Assembly (NCBI GenBank): GCA_024653345.1
Contig: JANLFV010000001.1
Coordinates: 148,387-212,386, forward strand
DNA length: 64,000 nt
DNA from: Candidatus Acetothermia bacterium
Lineage (GTDB): Bacteria > Bipolaricaulota > Bipolaricaulia > RBG-16-55-9 > JANLFV01
Direction of reading: 5' to 3'
Shown: positions 22,661 through 56,907 of the stretch, piece after piece
How positions within the stretch are numbered: the first letter of the stretch is position 1
Layout: each line of letters starts with the position of its first letter
Program-made: the position numbers and the translations under genes
Notes under the pieces: generated by a model
What the model saw: the letters and a program-made list of their open reading frames with translations, nothing else
Told to the model about the DNA's origin: nothing
The model's database searches: none

Positions 22661-23743
22661 TTAAGCCTCCCAAGTTGCCAGGCGCTTGAGCGCCTCCAGT
22701 TTCTCCCGCCGGCCGAGCTTGGCTTGCTCGACCGCCTTCCTCAGGACCGCGATCGTCCGGTCGTAGCCCCGCCGGTCGACGGGGTAGGGGTGGCCGTCCT
22801 TCCCGCCGTGGGCGAAGCTATAGCGGGCCGGATCGCGCCAGTCCAGCTCGGCCCCGTAGACCAGCTCGCTCAGCAGGGCCAGGGCCCGGACGGTCTTCGG
22901 CCCGACCCCTTCCAGGCTCAGCAGCTCCTCGAAGCCCGCGGGCTGGCGCTCATAGGTCCTAAGGAAGATCTTCTCCAGCCGCTCAGGGTGGATATCCTCG
23001 AGGAGGAGCCGATGGCGCGGTGGGAGCGAGAGCACCTTCTCCCGGAGCTGCTGCAATTCCCTGGCCAGGCGCTCGGGCCGCTCGCAGGCCAGCGCGGCGC
23101 TGACCTGCCTCGCCTCGCCGCTCACCCTTGAGACCAGATTGAGCGCCTCGCCGCGGCGGTCGCAGCAGATCGCGGTATGGGGCTCCTCCACGAAGCTGAA
23201 TTCAGGCCGATGGCCCCCGAGCCAGTGGTAGCGCCGGGCATAGCCCGTCTGCTCGTTCATCCCCTGCTGGACCACGGCCCAGCGGCCCTCCCGGTCGAAG
23301 ATAAATAAATGATGGTAGATCTGATACCCGTCCTGGAGGGCGGAGTTATCGACCTTCGCGCTCATCCGGCTGGCGTAGACCAGCTCCGCCGGATCGACCT
23401 TCAGCTCCGGCCCCCAGCCCTCGATCTCCTCGGGCGCCTTCCGGGAGGTCGCCCCCTTCCCCCTGGCGATGAAGAGCCCCAGCTCCTTCTCTAGGCCGCG
23501 GATCCCCTCCTTCAGCGCCGCCCCGGTCGTGGTCGTCAGGCCGGAGGAGTGCCAGTCGAATCCGAGCAACGACCCCAGGGCCTGGAACCAGAAGGGGTCG
23601 GCGAGCCGCCTCATCAGCTCGAACGGCCCGAATTCGTCGACCAGGAGGATCGCGATCTGGCGGGCCAGCTCCCTCATCCTTTCAAAGAGCCAGTGCGGCG
23701 TCTCGCCATAGTGGAGCGGCAGCTCCGCGGTCCCCGTGCGCAT
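22661..23743 (-). CDS. DUF763 domain protein
   Basis: This 360-aa protein matches DUF763, a family frequent in archaea and thermophilic bacteria. It begins MRTGTAELPLHYGE, contains YASRMSAKVDNSALQDGYQ and WAVVQQGMNEQTGYARRYHW, and has a helix-hairpin-helix-like LLSLEGVGPKTVRALALL near residue 300, hinting at nucleic-acid binding. ATG 23743 fits the family N-terminus and has GGGGTGAG upstream. It is the first gene of the DUF763, coiled-coil, amrS operon and is divergent from ssb. Confidence 0.88.
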   Translation of the reverse strand: MRTGTAELPLHYGETPHWLFERMRELARQIAILLVDEFGPFELMRRLADPFWFQALGSLLGFDWHSSGLTTTTGAALKEGIRGLEKELGLFIARGKGATSRKAPEEIEGWGPELKVDPAELVYASRMSAKVDNSALQDGYQIYHHLFIFDREGRWAVVQQGMNEQTGYARRYHWLGGHRPEFSFVEEPHTAICCDRRGEALNLVSRVSGEARQVSAALACERPERLARELQQLREKVLSLPPRHRLLLEDIHPERLEKIFLRTYERQPAGFEELLSLEGVGPKTVRALALLSELVYGAELDWRDPARYSFAHGGKDGHPYPVDRRGYDRTIAVLRKAVEQAKLGRREKLEALKRLATWEA

Positions 23744-23790
23744 CTCACCCCAGTTTAACGAACTTCCGGAGTAGAGCAAAGCCGCGGAAC

Positions 23791-23818: not shown

Positions 23819-23852
23819 AATCTTCACCAAAGTGTAACGAGGTGCGACATAG

Positions 23853-24407
23853 ATGGGGTTGAACCGAGTGATCCTGACGGTGAACCTCACCGCCGATCCT
23901 GAGCTCCGCTATACTCAGTCGGGCCGGGCGCGGACGCGGTTCACCATCGCGGTGAACCAGCAATATCGCGATCAAGAGGGCCATCTTCAGGAGACGACTA
24001 TCTTCGTTCCAATCGTGGTCTGGGGCCCGCAGGCCGAATTCTGTGCCAACTTCTTGAAGAAGGGGCAAGAGGTGGCGGTCGACGGGAGGCTGAGGATTGA
24101 CACCTTCGAGACCCGGGAGGGGAAGCCCTGGAAGATCGTGGAGGTCATCGCACAGCACGTAGAGCTTCCCGGAGGGCGGCCCGCGGAGGCGAAGGAGGAG
24201 CTGCCGGAAGAGCCGGAGCCTGGAGATGAGGAAGCTCTTTCGGAAGTGGCGAGAGACCAAGCACCGCCCAAATATCACCCTACCAAACCCATGTATTGTT
24301 GGAACTGTAAAACTACTGTCCAAGCCGAGGGAATTTGGGACGATTTTGATGAAAGGTGGAACTATAGATGCACTAGATGCGGATATCTAATCGGTTCGCA
24401 TCGTTAA
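23853..24407 (+). CDS. ssb: Single-stranded DNA-binding protein with C-terminal zinc ribbon
   Basis: This is a 184-aa protein. Residues 1-108 are a standard bacterial SSB OB-fold (LNRVILTVNLTADPELRYT; VVWGPQAEFCANFLKKGQEV; VDGRLRI). An acidic linker follows (about 110-140). Instead of the acidic DDDIPF-like tip that recruits partners, the protein ends in a zinc ribbon: C149-x2-C152 and C173-x2-C176 (YCWNC ... YRCTRCGY). The DNA coding residues 140-184 is markedly AT-rich (TGT, AAA, ACT, TTT codons) against the GC-rich OB-fold, as if the tail came from another source. Confidence 0.88.
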   Translation: MGLNRVILTVNLTADPELRYTQSGRARTRFTIAVNQQYRDQEGHLQETTIFVPIVVWGPQAEFCANFLKKGQEVAVDGRLRIDTFETREGKPWKIVEVIAQHVELPGGRPAEAKEELPEEPEPGDEEALSEVARDQAPPKYHPTKPMYCWNCKTTVQAEGIWDDFDERWNYRCTRCGYLIGSHR

Positions 24408-27912: not shown

Positions 27913-29094
27913 ATGGCCGCTGGGAAGGTAACCCTGCTCATCTTGCCCGGCCCCGAGGGGAAGAGCGAGGTCGAGCGGCTGGTCAGCGGAGCGAGGGCGG
28001 CGATCGCGCGCGACTTGATCGAGAAAGCTCTGCAGGTGAAGACTATCGATGAGATCATCGTCGCTACTCCCGCAGCCACCTTCGCCTCCGAATTGGCGGG
28101 CTTGCCCGTCGTCACGGAACTGCTCGATGGGGCTGACTTCCACTTCGGTCTGCGGGTCTGGAGCCTCATCGAGAAGCATCGGATCGAGAGGCTGATCTAC
28201 ATCTCCGGCGGGAGCGGGGCCCTCCTCTCGGAGGAGGAACTGGCCACGCTGGCCGGGCTCCTCCTCGAGGAGGAGCGGCTCTTCCTGGCGAACAACTTCT
28301 ACTCCACTGACTTCCTCGCCCTCGCACCGGCCCAGGCCCTCCTCCCACTCCCGCCGCCGGAGAGCGACAACCGGCTCGGCTGGCTCCTCTGGGAGGCCGG
28401 GTTCAAGGCGGCCGAGCTCCCCCGGACCGCCGCGACCCAGTTCGACATTGACACCCCGACCGACCTTCTGATCTTGAAGATCCATCCCGGGGCCGGGCCG
28501 AATACCAGGGCCTACCTGGAGGGGCTCGACTTGGGCGCGGCTGCGGCCCGCCTCGACGCGGCCCTCCGGGCCTTCACCAATCGCGAGGCGACGGTCCTGG
28601 TCGCCGGGCGGGTCTCGGCCCAGACCTGGCGGTTCCTCGAGGAGGAGACCGCCTGCCAGGCCCAGGTCTTCTCCGAGGAGCGGGGCTTGAAGGCCAGCGG
28701 GCGGGAGGAGCGGGGCGAGGGGCGGTCGCTCTTGGGCTTCCTCCTCGAGGAGCTCGGCCCGGAGCGATTCTTCCGGACTCTGGGGAAGCTCGCGGACCTG
28801 GCGTTGATAGACTCGCGAGTCCTCTTCGCCCACCTGAGGAAGTGGCCCACGGCCCAGGACCGCTTCCTCTCGGACCTCCTCCGCGCGGAGGAGATACAGG
28901 ACCCGGAGATAAGGGAGTTCACCGCCGCCGCGAGGGCGGCCCCCTTGCCGGTGATCCTCGGGGGCCATTCGCTCGTCTCCGGGGGCTTGTATGCCCTGGT
29001 CGAGCTCGCCTGGCGGGGGAAGAGCCTCGAGCGGCGGGTCCAGGTCCGGCCATTATCGATCCCGGTCCGCATGAACATGAAAGTGAAGGAGTGA
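27913..29094 (+). CDS. Nucleotidyltransferase-like protein of unknown function
   Basis: This 393-aa protein is not firmly recognised. The N-terminal 200 or so residues have the build of a GT-A nucleotidyltransferase: an opening strand VTLLILPGPEG, a helix with basic residues (GARAAIARDLIEKAL), alternating strands (EIIVATP, RLIYISGGSGALL) and a closing TQFDIDTPTDLLIL, as in MobA/CofC/IspD-type enzymes. The usual N-terminal GxGxR loop is not clear. The C-terminal half is helical. It starts an operon with a SHMT-GcvT fusion and NIF3, so a role in folate/C1 or a cofactor is conceivable. Confidence 0.5.
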   Translation: MAAGKVTLLILPGPEGKSEVERLVSGARAAIARDLIEKALQVKTIDEIIVATPAATFASELAGLPVVTELLDGADFHFGLRVWSLIEKHRIERLIYISGGSGALLSEEELATLAGLLLEEERLFLANNFYSTDFLALAPAQALLPLPPPESDNRLGWLLWEAGFKAAELPRTAATQFDIDTPTDLLILKIHPGAGPNTRAYLEGLDLGAAAARLDAALRAFTNREATVLVAGRVSAQTWRFLEEETACQAQVFSEERGLKASGREERGEGRSLLGFLLEELGPERFFRTLGKLADLALIDSRVLFAHLRKWPTAQDRFLSDLLRAEEIQDPEIREFTAAARAAPLPVILGGHSLVSGGLYALVELAWRGKSLERRVQVRPLSIPVRMNMKVKE

Positions 29095-29099
29095 GAAGG

Positions 29100-32000
29100 A
29101 TGTATGAGCGCTATTTCAATCGGCCCCTAGCGGAGGTCGACCCCCTGATCGCGGCCCTCATCGGCCACGAGGAGGAAAGGCAGGCGAGGAAGATCATCCT
29201 GATCCCCTCGGAGGCGATGGCCCCCTCGCTGGTGAGGGAGGCCCTCGGCTCGGTCTTCACCAACCTATATGCCGAGGGTTATCCCCCGGTGAGGATGGTC
29301 CGCTCCGATGAGAGGCTCCTTTCGGACCTGGCCTGCCAGCTTGCCCACCTCCGCCGCTACGGCGACCGGAGGTTCTACAAGGGGGTGGAGTATGTCGATA
29401 TCTTGGAGGCGCTCGCCCAGCGGCGGATCGCGGAGTGCTTCGCCAACCCCCGCGCCCCGGCGGATGAGATCTTCGTGAACATCCAGCCGCTCTCCGGCGC
29501 GGCGGCCAACCTCGCCGTTTATGACGCCTTCCTCGAGCATGGGGATGTGGTGATGGGGATGGACCTGATGCACGGCGGCCACCTCACCCACGGGAGCCGG
29601 TTCAACTTCTCCGGGAAGTGCTACAAGGTCGTCTCCTACACCGTCGACCCCAAGACCGAGCTTTTGGACTACGACCAGATCATGGAGCTGGCGAGGGAGC
29701 ATAAGCCGAAGCTGATCATCGCGGGCTACACCTCTTACCCCTGGGCCCCCGACTGGGAGAGATTCCGGAAGATCGCCGATGAGGTCGGGGCGATCCTGCT
29801 CGCGGATATCGCCCACACCGCGGGGATGGCGATCGCCGGGGCCTACCCCAACCCCGTGGGGATCGCCGATGTCGTGACCTTCACGACCCATAAGACGATC
29901 TGCGGCCCCCGAGGGGCCTGCATCCTCACCACCGACGAGGCCAAGGCTGAGAAGATTGATAATGCCGTCTTCCCCGGGGAGCAGGGCGGCCCGCATGTCA
30001 ATAAGTTCGCGGCCATGGCCGTGGCCTTCGGGATCGCCAAGACCGAGGCCTTCCGGGAATTGCAGCACCGGATCGTCGCCAATGCCAAGCACCTGGCCGA
30101 GGCCCTAAAGAACCGCGGGATCCGCTTGGCCTACGGCGGGACGAACACCCACATCGTGATGGTTGACCTCAAGTCGGTCCACCCCGAGCTGAAGGGCGAG
30201 CCGGCGGCCAGGATCTTGGACCTCGCGGGGATCGTGGTGAACCGGAACACCATCCCCGGGGACACCGTCACGGCCCTGGGGACGGGGATCAGGCTCGGGA
30301 CCCCCTGGGTGAGCCAGCGGGGGATGGGGAAGGAGGAGATGGAGAAGCTCGCGGAGCTGATCCATCGGATCATCTCGAATATCAAGCCCTTCAGCTACCA
30401 GGGCCTCCGGGGCGAGCTCCCCCGGGGGAAGATCGAGCTCGAGGTCTTGGAGGAGGTCAAGCGCGAGGTCGAGGAGCTGGCCGCGGCCACGCCGGCCGAG
30501 ACCCGCTCCCGCGGGACTGGCTACCCGCACTACTACTTCCTCGAGGAGGCCCGGGCTGTGACGAGGGAGCATGCCCCGGCTTCGGCGGGCAATCCTAAGC
30601 CGGCCCTGCTCGATGAGCTGACCATCCTCCAAGTCCGGGGCGCGCGGGCCCTACCCTTCCTCCAGGAGGCCCTCACCGCCGACATCGCCGCCCTCAGGCC
30701 GGGGGAGTGCACCCCCTCTTTTATCCTCGAGCGGGATGGCCGGGTGATGGACGAGCTCCTGGTCTTGCGGCTCGAGCCCGAGCGGTTCATCCTCTTCAGC
30801 CGCCCGGAGAATGCCCCAAGGGTCAAGGCCTGGCTCCGCGGCCTATCGGACGGCTACATCATCTTCGACGATGACGATCTCTTAAGGAAAGTCGAGGGTC
30901 CGGCGGTCGTGGAAGACCTGGCGACGGACCTCCCCGAGGAGGAGCGGCAGGCCCTGCTCTCCCGGATCGAGCGGGCCCTCCGCGCCGCAGGGGCGGGGGT
31001 CGACCCCCGCCGAAGGGCGTTGGAGGTGGCCCCCGATGGCGACCGGCCCCAGGCCGCGGACCTTTACCGGGATGAGCGCTATCGCCCTCTCTTCCGGCTC
31101 AGCAAGCCCTACTTCGTCGGCCAGGCGAGCCTAGAGCGATTCGCCCCCAGGGTGAAGAAGAAGGAGTTCAAATGGGAGGGCCATGAGCCGGGGCCTCTCC
31201 GGCGGACCCCGCTCTTCGAGGAGCACAAGCGCCTTGGGGCCAAGTTCGTCCCCTTCGCCGGGTGGGAGATGCCGGTCTGGTATTCCAGCGTGAGCGAGGA
31301 GCACCTTGCCGTCCGAGAGGCGGCCGGGCTCTTCGATGTCGGCCACATGGGGGTCCTCGAGGTCGCGGGAGAGCACGCTACGAGCCTCCTCGACCTGGCC
31401 ACGACCAACTATGTCCGGTGGCTCGAGCCCGGGGAGTCGCAATACACCTACCTCCTCGACCCCGACGGCCGAGTGATCGACGACCTGATCGTCTACTGCC
31501 GTGACAGAGAGCGATACTTGCTCGTCGTGAACGCCATCAACGCCGAGGAGGACCTGGCCTGGCTTTTGGCCGTGAACTCTGGGGAATACCTCCTCGACCG
31601 CCGGAGGCCGTGGGTCGAGCCCGAGGGGCCGGCCCTGGTCCGGGACCTCAAAGCCCCCGAGGCGGGCGAGGACCGGCGGATCGACCTGGCCCTCCAGGGG
31701 CCCAAATCGCTGGCGATCCTCCAGAGGTTGGCCGAGCCCGAGCTGAGCCATCGCCTGGGGCGGCTCAAGCGGACCGAGCTCTTGGAAGGCGAGCTCGCCG
31801 GCATCCCGGTGATCATCGCCCGGACGGGCTATACCGGCGAGGAGTTCGGGTATGAGCTTTTAGTCCACCCCGACCGGGCGGTCGCGCTCTGGCGGCTCTT
31901 GCTCGAGGCCGGGGCCGAGTTCGGGCTCAAGCCCGCCGGCCTGGGAGCAAGAGACTCCACGAGGACCGAGGCCGGCCTCCCCCTCTACGGCCATGAGCTG

Positions 32001-32447
32001 GCGGGCGAGCTGGGCATCTCTCCGATCGAGGCCGGCTTCGAGGGGTATGTGAAGTTCCATAAGCCGTTCTTCATCGGGAGGGAGGCCCTCCTCAAGCGGA
32101 AGCGGGAGATGAAGATGACGGTCGTCCGGTTCAGGATGGAGAGGAAGGGAGTCCGGCCCCCGAAATACGGCGATCCCGTGGTCGACCGGACCGGGCGGTT
32201 CCTCGGGCAGGTCACCTCCTGCGCCCTCGACACCGAGGGCTTCCTGGTCGGGATGGCCTATATCGATAAGGGCGCGAGCGCCGAGGGGACCCCGCTCTGG
32301 ATCTACTCCCTCCCCGAGCGAGGGGCGGAGAAGGGGCCAAGGGGACTTCGCCCGGGCGACCGGCTTCCCCTGCCGAACGAGGCCAAGGTCATCCCGAGGT
32401 TCCACATCGGCCGGCCGCTCGCCCTCCACACTGCCTGCCAGGAGTGA
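29100..32447 (+). CDS. Serine hydroxymethyltransferase - GcvT-like - aminomethyltransferase fusion
   Basis: This 1115-aa polypeptide has three parts. Residues 1 to about 480 are a complete SHMT (GlyA), with the PLP lysine K265 in TTHKTICGPRG. Residues about 495-690 look like a degenerate GcvT folate barrel (ALPFLQEALTADIAALRPGE; FDDDDLLRKVEGP). Residues about 700-1115 are a full glycine-cleavage T protein (FEEHKRLGAKFVPFAGWEMP; FDVGHMG; RTGYTGEEFGYELL). SHMT exchanges glycine and serine with methylene-THF; T protein makes methylene-THF from the glycine aminomethyl group. Fusion could channel the folate. ATG 29100 has AAGGAG 8 nt upstream, 5 nt after the previous stop. Frame is open throughout. 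Confidence 0.88.
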   Translation: MYERYFNRPLAEVDPLIAALIGHEEERQARKIILIPSEAMAPSLVREALGSVFTNLYAEGYPPVRMVRSDERLLSDLACQLAHLRRYGDRRFYKGVEYVDILEALAQRRIAECFANPRAPADEIFVNIQPLSGAAANLAVYDAFLEHGDVVMGMDLMHGGHLTHGSRFNFSGKCYKVVSYTVDPKTELLDYDQIMELAREHKPKLIIAGYTSYPWAPDWERFRKIADEVGAILLADIAHTAGMAIAGAYPNPVGIADVVTFTTHKTICGPRGACILTTDEAKAEKIDNAVFPGEQGGPHVNKFAAMAVAFGIAKTEAFRELQHRIVANAKHLAEALKNRGIRLAYGGTNTHIVMVDLKSVHPELKGEPAARILDLAGIVVNRNTIPGDTVTALGTGIRLGTPWVSQRGMGKEEMEKLAELIHRIISNIKPFSYQGLRGELPRGKIELEVLEEVKREVEELAAATPAETRSRGTGYPHYYFLEEARAVTREHAPASAGNPKPALLDELTILQVRGARALPFLQEALTADIAALRPGECTPSFILERDGRVMDELLVLRLEPERFILFSRPENAPRVKAWLRGLSDGYIIFDDDDLLRKVEGPAVVEDLATDLPEEERQALLSRIERALRAAGAGVDPRRRALEVAPDGDRPQAADLYRDERYRPLFRLSKPYFVGQASLERFAPRVKKKEFKWEGHEPGPLRRTPLFEEHKRLGAKFVPFAGWEMPVWYSSVSEEHLAVREAAGLFDVGHMGVLEVAGEHATSLLDLATTNYVRWLEPGESQYTYLLDPDGRVIDDLIVYCRDRERYLLVVNAINAEEDLAWLLAVNSGEYLLDRRRPWVEPEGPALVRDLKAPEAGEDRRIDLALQGPKSLAILQRLAEPELSHRLGRLKRTELLEGELAGIPVIIARTGYTGEEFGYELLVHPDRAVALWRLLLEAGAEFGLKPAGLGARDSTRTEAGLPLYGHELAGELGISPIEAGFEGYVKFHKPFFIGREALLKRKREMKMTVVRFRMERKGVRPPKYGDPVVDRTGRFLGQVTSCALDTEGFLVGMAYIDKGASAEGTPLWIYSLPERGAEKGPRGLRPGDRLPLPNEAKVIPRFHIGRPLALHTACQE

Positions 32448-47806: not shown

Positions 47807-50416
47807 CTAGAACTGGGGCGTCTGGGAGGTGAACTCATAGAAGCTCGCGTAGCTCCGGTGGAAGCTGAGCTTGAACGAGCCGGTCGGGCCGTTCCGCTGC
47901 TTCCCGATGATGATCTCCGTGGGGTTGACGTCGGCCTTCTCCCCTCCCTCTTCTTCATCGTAGTAGCTCTCGCGGTAGATGAAGACGACCACGTCAGCGG
48001 TCTGCTCGATCTCGCCGGAATTGTGCACCACAATCCCGTTGGCTACAAAATTATGTGCGCCCGCTACCACCAAATCCCAGACAGGTTCTTCCCCCTCGGG
48101 CACGATCGAGAGCACCCGCTCCCATAGGATATCACTCTTAGCCCAGTTCTGGAGTTGTAGGTCACCGAGCCGCTGGGCGATCTCTTGGGCCCGGCTGCGG
48201 GAGATGCGTTTCCCGACGGCTCGATACCCTAGGGCGGCATGAGATAGTCCCAAGCGCTTCCGCTGCTCATTAATCAGCAGGGAAACGAGTGGGGGCAGCG
48301 CTTCTAAACCGCTGTTAGTGCGCCGGCATCGCGGGGATGCCGCGAGCTGGTGGGCCAGCTCGGCCTTCTTGGCATGCAGGGGGATGAGCTTCGCGAATCT
48401 CGTGAGATTCTCCTCACTTCTCGATAGGTAGACTGTATAGAGAGGGCAAGTAGCCTTTACACCTTGATAGCCGGCGGTCAGCGCCGATACCAGACCAAGC
48501 CGGGTCAAGAGATATCGGACATCTTGGGCCAACCTCCAACTGGTCGTGGTCAACTTGACATCCCAGTAGCATCCCGGCCTTTGCACTAGGGAGCCATCGG
48601 TGGCGAATAGACCGCTCAAGTATTCCGCAATCCCCCGGTTATCAGCGGTGAGAACCCAGTCGGGCACGCTCTTTCGGTCATATCGTTCGCCAAGAACCCC
48701 TAGCTCCCCCAGCCAATTTCGGAGGGGATTCCCGTAGGGCTGACCGTAGCCATCGGGGTTCTTCTTAACAAAGGTCAATTGTTGGCTGCTAAAATGAGGC
48801 CGCCTGGACACCGTGACATCGAAATGCTCTTGTGCAATTGTTATGACATCTTGGATCAGGGTGGGATCGCTGTTGGCAAAGCCGACCTCCCGATGGCGCA
48901 AGTATGTGCCATCACCGGTCAAATAGCCCAGAAGGCGACAAAGCTCGGGATCGCGGTGCTCCCCCGGGAGGCTCACGGAGCGGGCGGTGGCGATGAGTGT
49001 CCCAGGGGCCAGTTCCCGGAGGGGCCGCCAGCCCTGCTCAGTGAAGAAGGGATGGTTAGCGGTCGCTCGGATCTCTCGCCCCGTTTGGGTCCTCAACCGA
49101 TAGACTCGATTGACCCCCTTGGGGATGACATCGAGGACCAGGGCCGGCCTCAGCCTTTGATCCTTGCCTAGTGCGATTACACTCATGCCAGGGCGGGCTC
49201 GGCACACCTCGACCAAGTTGCCTGTCTGACTGTCAATCACCCGGGTGTCGCTGGTCACGCATTCCCTCAAGTCCGAGAGCCGGGGGCGATGGGCCTCGCG
49301 CCGCTCGACGGCCCTCGAGAGCTGGGAGCAGGCGACCACGGGGATCGAGAGCTCGCGGGCCAGGGCCTTGAGGCTCCGGGCGATGTGCGAGATCTCCTGC
49401 TCCCGGACATCGGTCTTCGTCCCGCTCTCGACCAACTGGAGGTAATCGACGAACAGCAGGTCTATATCGTATTCAGCCTTCATCCGCCTCGCCCGGGCCT
49501 TCAGCTCCATCACCGAGATCCCCGGCGTATCGTCGATGACGATCCGGCTCTTGGCGAGCTTCCCCGCGGCCACGACGATGTCCCGCCACTTCTCCGCGGG
49601 GAGATAGCCCGAGCGGAGCTGATGGAGGTTGATCTTGGCCTCGCCGCAGATCAGCCGCTCCAGAAGCTGCTCCTTGGTCATCTCCAGGGAGAAGAGGCCC
49701 ACCCCCTTCCCGTCGCGCAAGGCCGCATTCCGGGCGATCGAGACGGCCAGGCTTGACTTCCCCATCGACGGCCGCCCGGCAATGATGATCAGGTCCGACG
49801 GCTGGAGCCCGCCAGTCATCTCGTCGAACTTCTTGAACCCCGTGGAGAGCCCGGTCACCGTGTGCTTATCCGGGTCGCGATGGAGCCGCTCGAGATTGCT
49901 GATGTGCTCGTGGATGAAGTCGCTGATCAGGTGATACCCCGGCCTCGTCCCAAGACGCGAGATGGAGAAGATCGACTCCTCCGCGCGGTCGAGCAGCTCC
50001 TCCAGCTCTTCCTCCTCGCTGTAGCCGAGCTCGGAGACGGCCTTGCCCGCCTCGATGAGGGCGCGCAAGGTCGCCTTCTTCCGGACGATCTCCGCGTAAT
50101 ACTCGACGGAGGTCGTGGTGGTGACGCTCCCGACCAGCTCGCTAAGATAGACCCGGCCCCCGACCCCCTGGAGGAGCTGGAGCTCTTCCAACCGGTCGGC
50201 CACTGTGATCAGGTCGGGCGCCCGCCCCTTCTCCGCCAACTCCAGAATCGCACGATAGATCACCTGATGCTGCTGCCAGTAGAAGTGCTCCGGGCTGAGG
50301 TAGTTCAGGAGGATGGGGAGGACGGTCTCCGGCTCCAACAGCGCCGCGCCGAGGACGACCTGCTCCGCCTCGCGGTTCTTCGGCAGCGGCCGAGGGAATT
50401 CGCGCTCCAGCGCCAT
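47807..50416 (-). CDS. dnaB: Replicative DNA helicase DnaB containing an intein
   Basis: This 869-codon frame encodes DnaB (455 aa after splicing). The N-terminal domain binds primase (PLPKNREAEQVVLGAAL). The RecA-like motor has Walker A AGRPSMGKSSLA, Walker B DLLFVDYLQL and the arginine-finger region near the end. A 414-aa intein interrupts the motif LSDLRE/SGEIEQTAD, a known DnaB intein site. The start is ATG 50416, not the longer frame from 50494, because a consensus promoter ends 9 nt before it and the upstream codons lie in the promoter. Confidence 0.95.
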   Translation of the reverse strand: MALEREFPRPLPKNREAEQVVLGAALLEPETVLPILLNYLSPEHFYWQQHQVIYRAILELAEKGRAPDLITVADRLEELQLLQGVGGRVYLSELVGSVTTTTSVEYYAEIVRKKATLRALIEAGKAVSELGYSEEEELEELLDRAEESIFSISRLGTRPGYHLISDFIHEHISNLERLHRDPDKHTVTGLSTGFKKFDEMTGGLQPSDLIIIAGRPSMGKSSLAVSIARNAALRDGKGVGLFSLEMTKEQLLERLICGEAKINLHQLRSGYLPAEKWRDIVVAAGKLAKSRIVIDDTPGISVMELKARARRMKAEYDIDLLFVDYLQLVESGTKTDVREQEISHIARSLKALARELSIPVVACSQLSRAVERREAHRPRLSDLRECVTSDTRVIDSQTGNLVEVCRARPGMSVIALGKDQRLRPALVLDVIPKGVNRVYRLRTQTGREIRATANHPFFTEQGWRPLRELAPGTLIATARSVSLPGEHRDPELCRLLGYLTGDGTYLRHREVGFANSDPTLIQDVITIAQEHFDVTVSRRPHFSSQQLTFVKKNPDGYGQPYGNPLRNWLGELGVLGERYDRKSVPDWVLTADNRGIAEYLSGLFATDGSLVQRPGCYWDVKLTTTSWRLAQDVRYLLTRLGLVSALTAGYQGVKATCPLYTVYLSRSEENLTRFAKLIPLHAKKAELAHQLAASPRCRRTNSGLEALPPLVSLLINEQRKRLGLSHAALGYRAVGKRISRSRAQEIAQRLGDLQLQNWAKSDILWERVLSIVPEGEEPVWDLVVAGAHNFVANGIVVHNSGEIEQTADVVVFIYRESYYDEEEGGEKADVNPTEIIIGKQRNGPTGSFKLSFHRSYASFYEFTSQTPQF
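48020..49261 (-). mobile_element. DnaB intein with LAGLIDADG endonuclease
   Basis: The 414-residue intein begins with Cys (CVTSDTRVIDSQTG), has block B RATANHPFFTEQGW, and ends VVAGAHNFVANGIVVHN, followed by extein Ser+1. All splicing residues (Cys1, TxxH-type His, penultimate His, last Asn, Ser+1) are present, so it should self-splice. Two dodecapeptide motifs, CRLLGYLTGDGTY and YLSGLFATDGSL, keep the acidic residues of an active homing endonuclease. GC content looks somewhat lower than in the exteins. Confidence 0.93.
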
Positions 50417-50425
50417 GGCAAGCTC

Positions 50426-50454
50426 ATTATAGTCATGGCCCCCTGGCGGTTCAA
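50426..50454 (-). promoter_or_regulatory. dnaB promoter (predicted leaderless)
   Basis: On the minus strand TTGAAC (50449-50454) and perfect TATAAT (50426-50431) are 17 bp apart; 9 nt remain to the ATG at 50416. The -35 box is one arm of the inverted repeat GGTTCAA (50448-50454) / TTGAACC (50463-50469), whose other arm is the rpsB -35 box. Confidence 0.75.
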
Positions 50455-50462
50455 CCGCCGGT

Positions 50463-50491
50463 TTGAACCACAGCGGTGCTTGTGGTATATT
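50463..50491 (+). promoter_or_regulatory. rpsB-tsf-pyrH promoter
   Basis: TTGAAC (50463-50468) and TATATT (50486-50491) are 17 bp apart, followed by a leader of about 44 nt. It is face to face with the dnaB promoter through a shared inverted repeat. Confidence 0.7.
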
Positions 50492-50541
50492 CACCCAACA
50501 GGAGTTGGTCTTCTGGAGATAAGGGGAAAGGAGGAGAGAAT

Positions 50542-52770: not shown

Positions 52771-52960
52771 ATGTCCAGGGTGATCACTCATACGGACGAT
52801 CAAGAGCCAGCCCTGTCCCCGTCGCAACTGCCCGACTATGGCTCCTCGACACAGGTCACCATGGCCGGCCAGAGAAGCGGGGCGACCGCGCTTCCTCTGC
52901 AAGAGCTGTAGATACTTCTTTCTCTCCCGCCAAAGGGACCCTCTTCTACGGCTGTCCAAG
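52771..52960 (+). pseudogene. Decayed zinc-ribbon remnant, possibly IS1-type InsA-like
   Basis: A short frame from ATG 52771 (stop 52909-52911) contains DYGSSTQVTMAGQRSG. In another frame the same stretch continues GRPRFLCKSCRYFF. With frameshifts these join into the N-terminal zinc-ribbon pattern of IS1-type InsA proteins (CPxCGS ... G.xRFxCKxCxRYF). No intact transposase or terminal repeats were found. The remaining bases of 52634-53133 show no gene, tRNA or clear hairpin. A 46-aa real ORF is the alternative. Confidence 0.3.
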
Positions 52961-53133
52961 CCGAGCGGAACAATCTCGCTACGATAGACTCAATCAAGGA
53001 GGAAACAACTCTCCTGAGTTGAGAAGACCATTCGACCTGTCCAGGAAGCGAAGGAACCTTTTTATTATAACTCCGGTCAAGAGACCTCTTTACGTCCACC
53101 TCCCACGAATATCGACGGAGTAATAGTATAGCG

Positions 53134-53721
53134 CTACATGCTGTCCTGCCGGATCGCTTCGTGGCAGTAGCACTCTTGAAGGTCGAAGTCCTGATATCCT
53201 AGGATAGGACAGATCCAGGACTGATCCCTGCGAAGGCCGAGCTGGGGAGAGATGACGAGGAGGTCTCCCGCTCCATTGAGATAGTAGCCAGCGCAGAGGG
53301 CAACTGGCACTGCTGCTTCAAGCTGAGAGAAGAGCAAGATCACCGCGTCATCCACGAGGAACAAGCCGAAGCGTAGCTGTTCTGCCTGCCACCCCGATAG
53401 CTTCCCTTCAATTTGAAAGATGGTTATCCCTATGGTGATGCTGTCCAGCTTGGACATTACATTCCAGGACATCGCTTGGGGATCCTGTTCGCTCCTGAGG
53501 GCCCTGGTTGCTTGGTCTGCCATGGCCAGAAAGAAGGACCGGACTAGCTCTGAGGTGATCTGCATCAAGTCGATCTGTTGCTGGAATGCGCCAAGCCGTT
53601 CTAGCGCCAATGTCTGCAAGTCCAGCAAACGCTCCGCCTGATGCGAGGAACCCGTTGGAAAAGGTAGGATTCCACCCAGCAAGACCGCCAATAATATCAA
53701 CCCTATCCTTAATGGTTTCAT
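53134..53721 (-). CDS. Exported protein of unknown function
   Basis: This 195-aa protein has a signal peptide (IGLILLAVLLGGILPFP). The mature part is mostly helical (ERLLDLQTLALERLGAFQQQ) with a C-terminal Cys cluster (SWICPILGYQDFDLQECYC). AAGGAGG lies just before the ATG. Codon use is AT-richer than in the housekeeping genes around it. No family is recognised. Confidence 0.6.
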   Translation of the reverse strand: MKPLRIGLILLAVLLGGILPFPTGSSHQAERLLDLQTLALERLGAFQQQIDLMQITSELVRSFFLAMADQATRALRSEQDPQAMSWNVMSKLDSITIGITIFQIEGKLSGWQAEQLRFGLFLVDDAVILLFSQLEAAVPVALCAGYYLNGAGDLLVISPQLGLRRDQSWICPILGYQDFDLQECYCHEAIRQDSM

Positions 53722-53742
53722 TCTCGCCTCCTTCCGATAGGT

Positions 53743-54105
53743 TCAGCACCTATATAGACTGCACCTTTCCTCTACCCAAGTTCTCCATTCTCCAGCGTAG
53801 AACCCGGTGCACTCGTAAAAACGGCACTTGCATATGCAGAATTCCCAGGGGTCGCACCACCATACATAGCTTGAGCAACCCCACCACAGAGCACACAGAT
53901 CATAGAAGTAGCCAGTAATAGGAACACACTCTGCAGGGACATACTGCGGTGCTTGCGAACCCGGACCAGCCGCGAATGAGGGATTTGCTTCATGAGCGGC
54001 TGTGGATCTTGAGGAGAGCGAGAAGTCGTTACCCCAAGAGATCAGCAGAATCACAAGCAGCACCGCTGCCAAACCGCTCTTGCCGATCCACCCTATCTCT
54101 GTCAC
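53743..54105 (-). CDS. Small exported Cys/Trp-rich protein (start uncertain)
   Basis: A signal-like helix (GLAAVLLVILLISWG) leads to a C-terminal 60 residues with ten cysteines and many aromatics (LCALWWGCSSYVWWCDPWEFCICKC). The longest frame begins at GTG 54126, but that lies between the -35 and -10 boxes. GTG 54105 overlaps the ribosome-binding site GGAGG (54105-54109). The codon at ideal distance (8 nt) is ATA at 54096, giving MGWIGKSGLAAV. I give the nearest canonical start. No family is recognised. Confidence 0.5.
   Translation of the reverse strand: MTEIGWIGKSGLAAVLLVILLISWGNDFSLSSRSTAAHEANPSFAAGPGSQAPQYVPAECVPITGYFYDLCALWWGCSSYVWWCDPWEFCICKCRFYECTGFYAGEWRTWVEERCSLYRC
53751..53779 (-). 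promoter_or_regulatory. Promoter of exported-protein gene
   Basis: On the minus strand TTGGGT (53774-53779) and TATATA (53751-53756) are 17 bp apart. It lies within the 3' end of the upstream gene, so the two exported-protein genes can be transcribed separately. Confidence 0.5.
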
Positions 54106-54116
54106 CTCCAAATTAA

Positions 54117-54145
54117 AAAATAGCACAGAATGTCGCCTTTGTCAA
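54117..54145 (-). promoter_or_regulatory. Promoter of Cys/Trp-rich exported protein
   Basis: On the minus strand TTGACA (54140-54145) and TATTTT (54117-54122) are 17 bp apart. GGAGGTGA begins 7 nt after the -10 box, as in the very short leader at 46736. Confidence 0.6.
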
Positions 54146-54272
54146 GAGTTCTCTCTCAGTAAGGCCCAGAGATAGCAATAGGCACACAGAGAATACACCT
54201 GAAGAACCACGCTGCCGTCTTGCTAATGAATAATTATTGAGGAGACCGGTTGTGTAATCTGCTTCCTCACGT

Positions 54273-54560
54273 CTAGTGGGCAAATGCCTTCGGGACCTCG
54301 AAGTAGTCTCCCCGGCGCTTGGGGGCGTTCTTGAGGGCCTCCTCCGGCGGGACTGACTCACGGGGCTGGTCCTCCCGGAACGGGCTCCCGCGCGAGAGGA
54401 CATGCTTGAGCAGCTCGACCCCCTCTGTATCGACCTCCTCGAGCTTCCGGAAGTAATCGAGGATCTCACCTAGCTGCGCCCGGAAGAGTTCGACCTCTTC
54501 CTCCGTCAGCTTGAGCTTCGCCAGCTTGGCGATGTGCAGGACCTCTTCTCGGGTGATCAT
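54273..54560 (-). CDS. gatC: Aspartyl/glutamyl-tRNA amidotransferase subunit C
   Basis: This 95-aa subunit stabilises the GatAB enzyme that converts Glu-tRNA(Gln) or Asp-tRNA(Asn). Motifs are EVLHIAKLAKLKLTEEE and the C-terminal RGDYFEVPKAF. The gene begins 1 nt after the recG stop, so it is translated from the recG transcript. gatA and gatB are not in the window, and 54127-54272 is empty. Confidence 0.93.
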   Translation of the reverse strand: MITREEVLHIAKLAKLKLTEEEVELFRAQLGEILDYFRKLEEVDTEGVELLKHVLSRGSPFREDQPRESVPPEEALKNAPKRRGDYFEVPKAFAH

Positions 54561-54561
54561 T

Positions 54562-56907
54562 CTAGAATCTCGCCCACTCGAACCGCCCGCCGAACCGCCG
54601 CGAAAACTCGGCCACCAAGGGGTGGTCCGGCTCGGCCTCGATCAGCTTGAGCGCCTCCTCCCGCGCGAGCTTCAATAGCTCGAGGTCCCTCAGCAGGTCC
54701 GCGGCCTTGAAGGTGGTGTCCAGGCCGTGCTGGGCCGGGCCCAACAGCTCCCCCGGGCCGCGGATCAGGAGGTCCTGCTCGGCAATCTTAAAGCCATCAT
54801 CGGTATCGCGGAAGGCCTCGAGCCGCCGTCTCGCCTCCTCGGTCTTGGGGCTGGCCAAGGCGAAGCAGAGGGCCTCCTGGCCGGCCCGGCCGATCCGGCC
54901 CCGAAGCTGGTGCAACTGGGCCAGGCCGAACCGGTCGGCGTGCTCGATGATCATGATCGAGGCGTCGGGGACATCGATCCCGACCTCGACGATCGTGGTG
55001 GCGACCAGGACATGGAGCTCCTTTCGGCGGAAGGCCTCCAGGACCGCCCGCTTCTCCGCGTCACTCACCCGGCCGTGGAGGAGGCCGACCTTGAACTCCC
55101 GGAAGGGGCCGCGCGCAAGTTCCTCGGCCATCTCCGTGGCCGCGCGAAGGTCCAGGAGGCGCGCCTCCTCCTCCGGCTCCTCGATCAAGGGGTAGATAAT
55201 GAACGTCTGCTCGCCCTTCGCCAGCCTCCCCTTGATGAGCTGGTAGACCTCCTCGCGCCGCTCCTCCGCGACCCAGTAGGTCTTGATCCGCCGCTCATAG
55301 GGGAGCTCGTCCAGGATCGAGATCTCGAACTGGCCGTAGAGGATGAGGGTGATCGTCCTCGGGATCGGGGTAGCGCTCATCACCAGGACATCGAGCTCCT
55401 GGCCCTTCTTCTCCAACTCGGCCCGCTGGATCACCCCGAAGCGGTGCTGTTCGTCGATGACCGCCAGGCCCAGCCTCCGGAAGCGGACCTCATCCTGGAT
55501 CAGGGCGTGGGTCCCCAGTACGAGGTCGACCTCCCCGCGCTCGATCCCCTCCCGCATCGCGGCCTTCTCCCGCTCGGGCAAGCTCCCGATCAGCAGGCCC
55601 ACCCTCAAGGGGAGCCGGGCCCGCTCGACCAAGTCGGTGATCACGCGGTAGTGCTGCTCGGCCAGGATCTCGGTCGGGGCCATCATCGCCGCTTGGTAGC
55701 CGCTCGCGTGGGCGATGAGGCAGGCGATCAGGGCCAAGACGGTCTTCCCGCTCCCGACATCCCCCTGGAGGAGGCGGTGCATCGGGCGGGGCGCGGCCAG
55801 GTCTTCTCTGATCTCGGCGAGCGCCCGCCCCTGGGCCGCGGTGAGCCGGAAGGGGAGGGCGGCGATGAACTCCTCGAGCTGCTCATCCGAGATCGTCAGG
55901 CTCCGCCCCGGCCGGTCCCGCACCCGCCGGCGCTCGAGGGCCACCCCGATCTGGAAGAGGAAGAGCTCCTCGAAGGCCAGGCTCCTCCTGGCGAGCTCGA
56001 ACTCCTCGAGGCTCTCGGGGAAGTGGATCTTGAAGAAGGCCTCCCGCCTCGGGAGGAGGCCCAGCCGGAGCCGGACCTCCTCGGGGATCAGCTCCTCGAT
56101 CTCATCTTGGTAGAGCGCGAGGTTCTCCCGGATCAAGCGGAGGAGGGCCCCCTGGGGGAGCCCCTCGGTCGCGGGGTAGACCGGGACGAGCCGGCCGGTC
56201 AGGAAGTTCTCGCCCGCGGGCTCCCAGACGGGGTTGGTGAGCTGGACCGCCCCGAAGGCCCGCTCGACCTCCCCAAAGAGGGCGAGTTTCATCCCGACCG
56301 CGAACTGCTTCTTCAGCCAGGGCTGGTTGAACCAGACGGCGTAGGCCACCCCGCTTATGTCCTGGACCGCCACTTTCAGGATCTCCAGGTCCCGCCGCGG
56401 GCGGATGGTGTCGATCGCGCTCACCCTCCCGTGGATCGTGGCCCGCTCGCCGTGCCTCAAGGAGGCGATCCTTTTAATCTGGGAGCGGTCCTCGATCCGC
56501 CGAGGGAAATAGAGCAATAGGTCCTCGATCTTCTCGATCCCCAGCTTGTTCAATAGCTTCTCCCGCCGCTCGCCCACCCCCTTGGCGTAGCGGACGGGCG
56601 AGCCCAGGCCCCCCTTGGCCTTTCGCGCTTTAGGAGATACAACCCCGACCTCGACCGCGCGGAGGAGGTCCTCCAGTTCCCGGATCGCCTCCCTTCTCTT
56701 CATGAAAGGCATCGCGGCGTAGCCCTGGGCCTGGGCCCGGAGCGCGGCCGCTAGCTCCGCGTCCGCGGGCTCGAGCTCCGCAGCGGCGCGCTCGATGAAC
56801 CCCTCCAGGCCGCCGAGGACCGCCCGGTCCTGATACCCCTCCCGCTTCTCCAGCTGGAGGACCTTCGCCAGGCGGGCGAGCAGCTCTTCCCTCGCTTGTC
56901 CGGCCAT
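54562..56907 (-). CDS. recG: ATP-dependent DNA helicase RecG
   Basis: This 781-aa helicase remodels stalled forks and Holliday junctions. An N-terminal extension of about 120 residues precedes the wedge OB-fold (GVGERREKLLNKLGI, GERATIHGRVSAID). Helicase motifs are LLQGDVGSGKTVLA (I), MAPTEILAEQHY (Ia), DEQHRFGV (II), SATPIPRT (III), VATTIVEVGIDVP (V) and QLRGRIGRAG (VI), followed by the RecG TRG motif region. ATG 56907 follows a -10 box by 7-9 nt. Confidence 0.96.
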   Translation of the reverse strand: MAGQAREELLARLAKVLQLEKREGYQDRAVLGGLEGFIERAAAELEPADAELAAALRAQAQGYAAMPFMKRREAIRELEDLLRAVEVGVVSPKARKAKGGLGSPVRYAKGVGERREKLLNKLGIEKIEDLLLYFPRRIEDRSQIKRIASLRHGERATIHGRVSAIDTIRPRRDLEILKVAVQDISGVAYAVWFNQPWLKKQFAVGMKLALFGEVERAFGAVQLTNPVWEPAGENFLTGRLVPVYPATEGLPQGALLRLIRENLALYQDEIEELIPEEVRLRLGLLPRREAFFKIHFPESLEEFELARRSLAFEELFLFQIGVALERRRVRDRPGRSLTISDEQLEEFIAALPFRLTAAQGRALAEIREDLAAPRPMHRLLQGDVGSGKTVLALIACLIAHASGYQAAMMAPTEILAEQHYRVITDLVERARLPLRVGLLIGSLPEREKAAMREGIERGEVDLVLGTHALIQDEVRFRRLGLAVIDEQHRFGVIQRAELEKKGQELDVLVMSATPIPRTITLILYGQFEISILDELPYERRIKTYWVAEERREEVYQLIKGRLAKGEQTFIIYPLIEEPEEEARLLDLRAATEMAEELARGPFREFKVGLLHGRVSDAEKRAVLEAFRRKELHVLVATTIVEVGIDVPDASIMIIEHADRFGLAQLHQLRGRIGRAGQEALCFALASPKTEEARRRLEAFRDTDDGFKIAEQDLLIRGPGELLGPAQHGLDTTFKAADLLRDLELLKLAREEALKLIEAEPDHPLVAEFSRRFGGRFEWARF

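Follow-up and report, generated by a model that had tools for sequence, protein, structure and literature searches.

The ssb2 locus and its product

The window, that is, the whole 64-kb stretch of DNA which was analysed, carries a gene, here called ssb2, which specifies a paralogue of the bacterial SSB protein (Table 1). The gene stands alone, with its own spacer and ribosome-binding-site-like sequence, between a gene for a DUF763 protein and, on its 3' side, a short-chain dehydrogenase gene on the opposite strand. A search of the + strand 5' of ssb2 gave no sigma-70-like promoter, nor, when the sequence was read by eye, was a ribosome-binding-site-like sequence seen 5' of the ribbon's own ATG (24294), at which an internal start might be considered.

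Table 1. Features of ssb2 and of other genes discussed (positions in the window; aa, amino acids)
Feature	Position	Strand	Basis or remark
DUF763 gene	22661–23779	-	start side 73 bp upstream of ssb2
Ribosome-binding-site-like GAGGTG, 8 nt 5' of ATG	23839–23844	+	reading of sequence
ssb2, 184-aa SSB paralogue with C-terminal zinc ribbon	23853–24407	+	ORF, ATG start, uninterrupted; SSB profile matches
OB fold, aa 1–105	23853–24167	+	PF00436, E 5.4e-30; pLDDT about 94–97 (aa 11–100)
Acidic linker, aa 106–138, net charge -8	24168–24266	+	low model confidence
SSB tip remnant DEEALS; GAA (Glu131) opposite the sister's TAG stop	24225–24245	+	global DNA alignment
Zinc-ribbon tail, aa 139–184, C149-x2-C152-x20-C173-x2-C176, net charge +2, GC about 0.45	24267–24404	+	composition, AlphaFold2
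First CxxC pair, Cys149 and Cys152	24297–24308	+	translation
Second CxxC pair, Cys173 and Cys176, then Gly-Tyr	24369–24380	+	translation
DnaB helicase gene	47807–50494	-	about 23 kb from ssb2
RecG	54562–56907		about 30 kb from ssb2

The N-terminal part of the product matches the SSB profiles PF00436 [aa 3–105, 104 bits, cut-off 26] and TIGR00621 of NCBIfam [111.9 bits, cut-off 53.95], and judged by these profiles it is a true member of the bacterial SSB family. It shares the OB fold and the acidic linker with the housekeeping bacterial SSBs, but has a zinc ribbon of 46 aa where the Pro-Phe tip would be; its C-terminal end reads ...YLIGSHR and the acidic Pro-Phe tip (SSB-Ct) is absent. Since tip-less SSB paralogues are known, the missing tip bars the name of a canonical hub SSB and not membership of the SSB family. 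The full-length model [single chain, 38-sequence alignment, mean pLDDT 84.2], taken with the sequence, shows the ribbon as a folded unit tethered by a disordered, acidic segment. Profiles, AlphaFold2 and alignment thus bear out the sequence-only reading of this gene as an SSB with an acidic linker followed by a zinc-ribbon-like C-terminus.

That reading had also raised a possible connection of ssb2 with RecO, RecG or DnaB, taken to be encoded nearby. The gene context lends this no support: the genes for RecG and DnaB lie about 30 and 23 kb away, so that no partnership can be read from their occurrence in the window, and the immediate neighbours are the DUF763 and short-chain dehydrogenase genes. 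The DUF763 product was in turn considered as a partner and rejected, being missing from all 18 genus and order mates and having no SSB beside it in any of the 12 DUF763 loci read. It is found in 51 of 100 genomes of the class (the source genome included) and, among the control genomes, only in the archaeon Sulfolobus acidocaldarius.

Elsewhere in the window, the DnaB gene is split by an intein that bears a LAGLIDADG endonuclease domain, and a 1201-aa ORF (28842–32447, + strand) combines serine hydroxymethyltransferase with two regions that match the aminomethyltransferase domain GcvT.

Duplication of ssb and the fate of the tip

Two SSB genes were detected in the source genome, a draft of 1.71 Mb in 31 contigs which is about 92% complete. 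The other one, the housekeeping ssb of 133 aa, sits between rpsF-like and rpsR-like ORFs, so named from their translations (locus L001 1495–1896; G000 C7:19367–19768). In a tree of 92 SSBs of the class the two genes are sisters with a support of 0.976, and over 105 codons (aa 1–105) they are 82% identical in nucleotides and 83% in amino acids. Tree and identity together show, at the level of sequence, that ssb2 arose from the housekeeping ssb by a lineage-specific duplication. The named relatives matched by the ssb2 protein belong to Candidatus Fraserbacteria, Bipolaricaulota and Acetothermia; no SSB match was obtained from the genus mate G001 (73% complete).

The terminal branch of ssb2 measures 0.136 versus 0.063 for its housekeeping sister, and position 10 is Val in ssb2 where all aligned relatives carry Gly. 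The longer branch and changes of this kind at conserved sites fit specialisation. The pairwise dN/dS of the OB part, the only part compared and one to whose value constraint on the sister contributes, is 0.12 [dN 0.093, dS 0.75]. By this measure ssb2 does not resemble a dead gene. Its OB fold appears to be under purifying selection, and for this reason ssDNA binding has very probably been kept.

The junction with the tail can be placed by aligning the linker DNA of the two genes. The sister reads GAT GAG GAG GTG CCT TCC TAG and ssb2 reads GAT GAG GAA GCT CTT TCG GAA, 14 of 21 bases being identical by hand count on the global alignment. DEEVPS and its stop codon pair with DEEALS and a Glu, which means that the ribbon begins, after a short bridge, close to the position of the former stop codon. 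On this alignment the tip has been replaced through extension past the old stop, and its remnant DEEALS is now internal, without a terminal carboxylate. A frameshift near 24260 had been named earlier as the observation that would overturn a replaced tip; instead no break interrupts the ORF, whose linker remains in frame with the sister as far as the sister's stop. The sister alignment therefore upholds the claim that the tip was replaced and not frameshifted.

A further question raised by the sequence-only reading, whether the genome has another ssb with a normal tip, finds an unexpected answer. A second ssb is indeed present, but it ends in DEEVPS and not in PF, the end found in all 92 SSB loci of the relatives. 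DEEVPS is a single T-to-C change (TTC to TCC) from DEEVPF. Ser occupies the aligned place in ssb2 as well (TCG), and its presence in both copies hints, on the basis of one seven-codon alignment, that the Phe disappeared ahead of the duplication and that its loss is no sequencing error. The terminal Phe is therefore absent from both SSBs detected in the genome; a third, canonical SSB may be encoded in the missing 8% or so. In E. coli, an SSB that lacks its terminal Phe no longer binds partners, and the deletion is lethal (PMC10164576).

How unusual is the tail? From 90 of the 99 relatives searched we obtained 92 SSB loci, the remaining nine genomes having no SSB match; in two of these loci a frame break divides the gene, and here the C-terminal piece was scored. 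A CxxC pair behind the OB fold occurs in none of the 92, in none of the 78 complete SSBs among 80 loci from genome contigs, and in none of 80 viral SSBs. The pair is thus missing from about 250 other SSBs, in sets that were chosen by likeness to the query, that are no random bacterial sample and in which some named loci repeat class relatives. PF lies within the last six residues of all 78 complete genome-contig proteins and of 73 viral ones (missing in 7 of 80). Likewise, the literature searched, whose coverage leaves out most subscription journals, described no SSB of bacteria that ends in a zinc ribbon. One draft genome is so far the only known source of this odd SSB variant.

Fold, composition and origin of the tail

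When the 52-aa tail was given alone to AlphaFold2 it was modelled as a four-stranded ribbon (strands 9–17, 22–31, 36–41 and 47–51 of the model), with mean pLDDT running from 85.5 in the best of five models down to 43.5 in the poorest. The cysteines, at 17, 20, 41 and 44, fall at strand ends and turns, a zinc-ribbon-like placement. The full-length model reproduces the ribbon [block means 77–87; strands 147–149, 154–156, 158–163, 168–173 and 179–183]. A confident four-strand fold from the tail alone makes the ribbon more than a set of chance cysteines. By its two CxxC knuckles and its modelled beta-ribbon fold the tail qualifies as a zinc ribbon, and on the same models it would presumably bind zinc.

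The best Pfam match of the ribbon is the TFIIB-type ribbon PF08271 [E 0.0024, 17.8 bits], below the cut-off of 29, and neither this nor any other named zinc-ribbon family in Pfam reaches its curated cut-off with the tail. Structural comparison gave weak matches to PDB chains of Elf1 [Z 4.0] and RPB9 [Z 3.9], amid unrelated rows of similar or higher Z, and their Foldseek E values are at least 1.7. The best VIA-align match was an unrelated propeller [Z 5.1], and Foldseek searches of solved and viral structures returned no match to the ribbon at E <= 0.001. Like the tail, these small stand-alone or terminal ribbons (TFIIB-type PF08271, Elf1, RPB9) have two CxxC knuckles in an all-beta ribbon; with all of them below the curated cut-offs or at a Foldseek E above 1, shared descent is not claimed.

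The DNA of the ribbon (aa 138–184) has a GC content of 0.447 [GC3 0.43], that of the OB part 0.600 [GC3 0.80] and the whole window 0.640, so that the earlier remark that the ribbon DNA is the AT-richer of the two proves correct. Windows of 138 bp as AT-rich as the ribbon or more make up 0.11% of the 64 kb. Other equally AT-rich patches are found at about 38.1, 47.6, 53.0, 53.7 and 54.2 kb, which makes the ribbon patch unusual and not unique, and low GC alone is weak evidence of foreignness. On the 3' side of the ssb2 stop codon GC returns to the genome level within about 20–40 bp. A cluster of small AT-rich ORFs occupies 52836–54287 of the window; three of them were scanned and gave no Pfam match.

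The sequence-only reading had gone further and suggested a tail fused from another replicon. No donor came to light in phages, plasmids, viral or genome contigs or the 99 relatives, and with low GC as weak evidence this suggestion is left without support. In particular, the relatives contain no clear homologue of the ribbon; phages gave no tail match at E <= 1, and the one plasmid match, in Agrobacterium [E 0.6, 28 residues], was taken as chance. Scanning the viral contigs and the genome contigs (the latter of 84,980 genomes) for exact 8-residue patterns, a method that distant relatives would escape, returned no tail match. The best E values against PHROGs and the PDB sequences were 0.018 and 1.2, respectively. 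Within the source genome the tail DNA is single-copy and, as far as the relatives and contig scans reach, the ribbon is known from this genome only.

Outside the source genome, the 100 genomes of the class (own included) gave two weak tail matches [E 0.0024 and 0.0089]. Pursuit of the better one brought out a family of small zinc-ribbon proteins, membrane-anchored and spread through the Bipolaricaulota class (L277–L306), which at E <= 0.01 is found in 59 of the 100 genomes, the ssb2 tail itself being counted. Single-sequence comparison with this family gave E 0.0024 in one direction and 0.0077 in the other. A profile of 30 members scored 4.7 bits on the tail, a value reached or exceeded by 263 of 2000 shuffles with Cys and Gly fixed. 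Because the profile does no better than shuffles, descent of the tail from this family is not claimed. The family members themselves (e.g., L277 1501–1851, - strand) are about 110–160 aa long and have a stretch resembling a membrane helix at the N-terminus and the zinc ribbon at the C-terminus; two have no Pfam match over the cut-off, and the ribbon cysteines are lost in some.

Possible roles of the ribbon

We infer, with even chances of being right, that ssb2 encodes a specialised SSB which docks through its zinc ribbon. The gene would have arisen as a duplicate of the housekeeping ssb, with the OB fold kept. Its product might then cover ssDNA during some form of repair, restart or recombination, where the ribbon, on its flexible acidic tether, would dock one particular partner, or ssb2 itself. 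With the canonical docking tip gone, partners which read the terminal Pro-Phe-carboxylate should not bind ssb2, if the E. coli work is a guide. A new recruitment mode through the ribbon, as the sequence-only reading imagined, is possible and is the function we prefer. As to the ribbon's main business, it could about equally well be protein docking or something else, and contact with nucleic acid would be a tentative second choice. Several points speak against this explanation: the ribbon is known from a single genome, the dN/dS is pairwise and covers the OB part only, the neighbours suggest no partner, no + strand promoter was found, Foldseek gave no match at E <= 0.001 and the worst tail-only model has a mean pLDDT of 43.5. 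The duplicate could also be young and heading for loss.

The main rival is that the ribbon is a nucleic-acid-binding add-on beside the OB fold, which alters site size, affinity or specificity, much as the zinc finger of OB-2/OB-C does in the RPA of archaea and eukaryotes, and recruits nothing; we regard this as possible, if doubtful. The net charge of +2 and the several Trp, Tyr and Phe residues of the ribbon agree with it, as does the conservation between archaea and eukaryotes of the reported contacts of the RPA zinc finger with ssDNA (PMC10122647). However, the RPA finger lies inside the OB fold (PMC10122647), whereas in ssb2 a long acidic linker precedes the ribbon, and the ribbon hairpin is acidic (Asp-Asp-Phe-Asp-Glu), which is unfavourable to DNA contact.

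Decay and assembly error are both less likely than either docking or nucleic-acid contact. One might imagine a redundant copy which lost its stop, became joined by accident to an adjacent piece of a zinc ribbon and is decaying with a tail of little or no function. Occurrence in one genome only, the faster terminal branch, the change at an otherwise invariant Gly, the absent tip and the AT-rich tail would all be expected of such a gene, but its ORF is intact, the pairwise dN/dS of the OB part is 0.12 at a dS of 0.75, and the four cysteines and a confident fold have been kept; we consider this explanation quite unlikely. Very unlikely, in our opinion, is an assembly or binning artefact in which the ribbon was joined from the sequence of another organism. 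A sharp drop in GC at the ribbon, relatives that lack it and a draft in many contigs might raise this suspicion. Yet the site is well inside a long contig, GC recovers soon after the stop, the genome has no second copy of the tail DNA, and the frame is kept across the join, with an exact alignment of the upstream part as far as the stop of the sister. We also entertained an origin by read-through from ssb into a duplicate of rpsR (bS18). In the housekeeping operon rpsR follows ssb after three bases and shares its frame, and its product bS18 has a CxxC near its start. Alignments of the tail with rpsR are no better than shuffles (61% of the protein and 92% of the DNA shuffles score as high or higher), and rpsR as the source of the tail, which we find scarcely credible, was rejected on this test.

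Docking through the ribbon, the reading which we prefer, would have wider meaning. Few docking peptides of bacteria are as conserved as the SSB tip, and a genome with no terminal Phe in either detected SSB and with one ribbon is a natural test of rebuilding the SSB hub on another module. It is conceivable, although we think it unlikely, that this lineage has moved off the near-universal Pro-Phe tip, the housekeeping Phe having been lost before the duplication and the ssb2 ribbon having then taken over recruiting. Were this so, partners would be docked to ssDNA via a folded metal-binding module and not via a C-terminal peptide.

Among systems already described, SsbB of naturally competent Firmicutes is likewise a second, specialised SSB beside a housekeeping one (PMC3128108, seen in part). 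Its C-terminal end is dispensable for one function, the ssDNA reservoir, and a zinc ribbon is not mentioned in that portion of the source (PMC3128108). The archaeal and eukaryotic RPA (OB-2/OB-C) is likewise an OB protein which binds ssDNA and has acquired a zinc module; it belongs to a different family and carries its finger between strands 1 and 2 of the OB fold (PMC10122647). In ssb2, unlike RPA, the OB fold (aa 3–105) is uninterrupted and the ribbon is a C-terminal appendage (aa 139–184) behind the linker. If zinc binding and docking are both true, ssb2 would be a bacterial, independently reached parallel to the archaeal and eukaryotic OB proteins that carry zinc.
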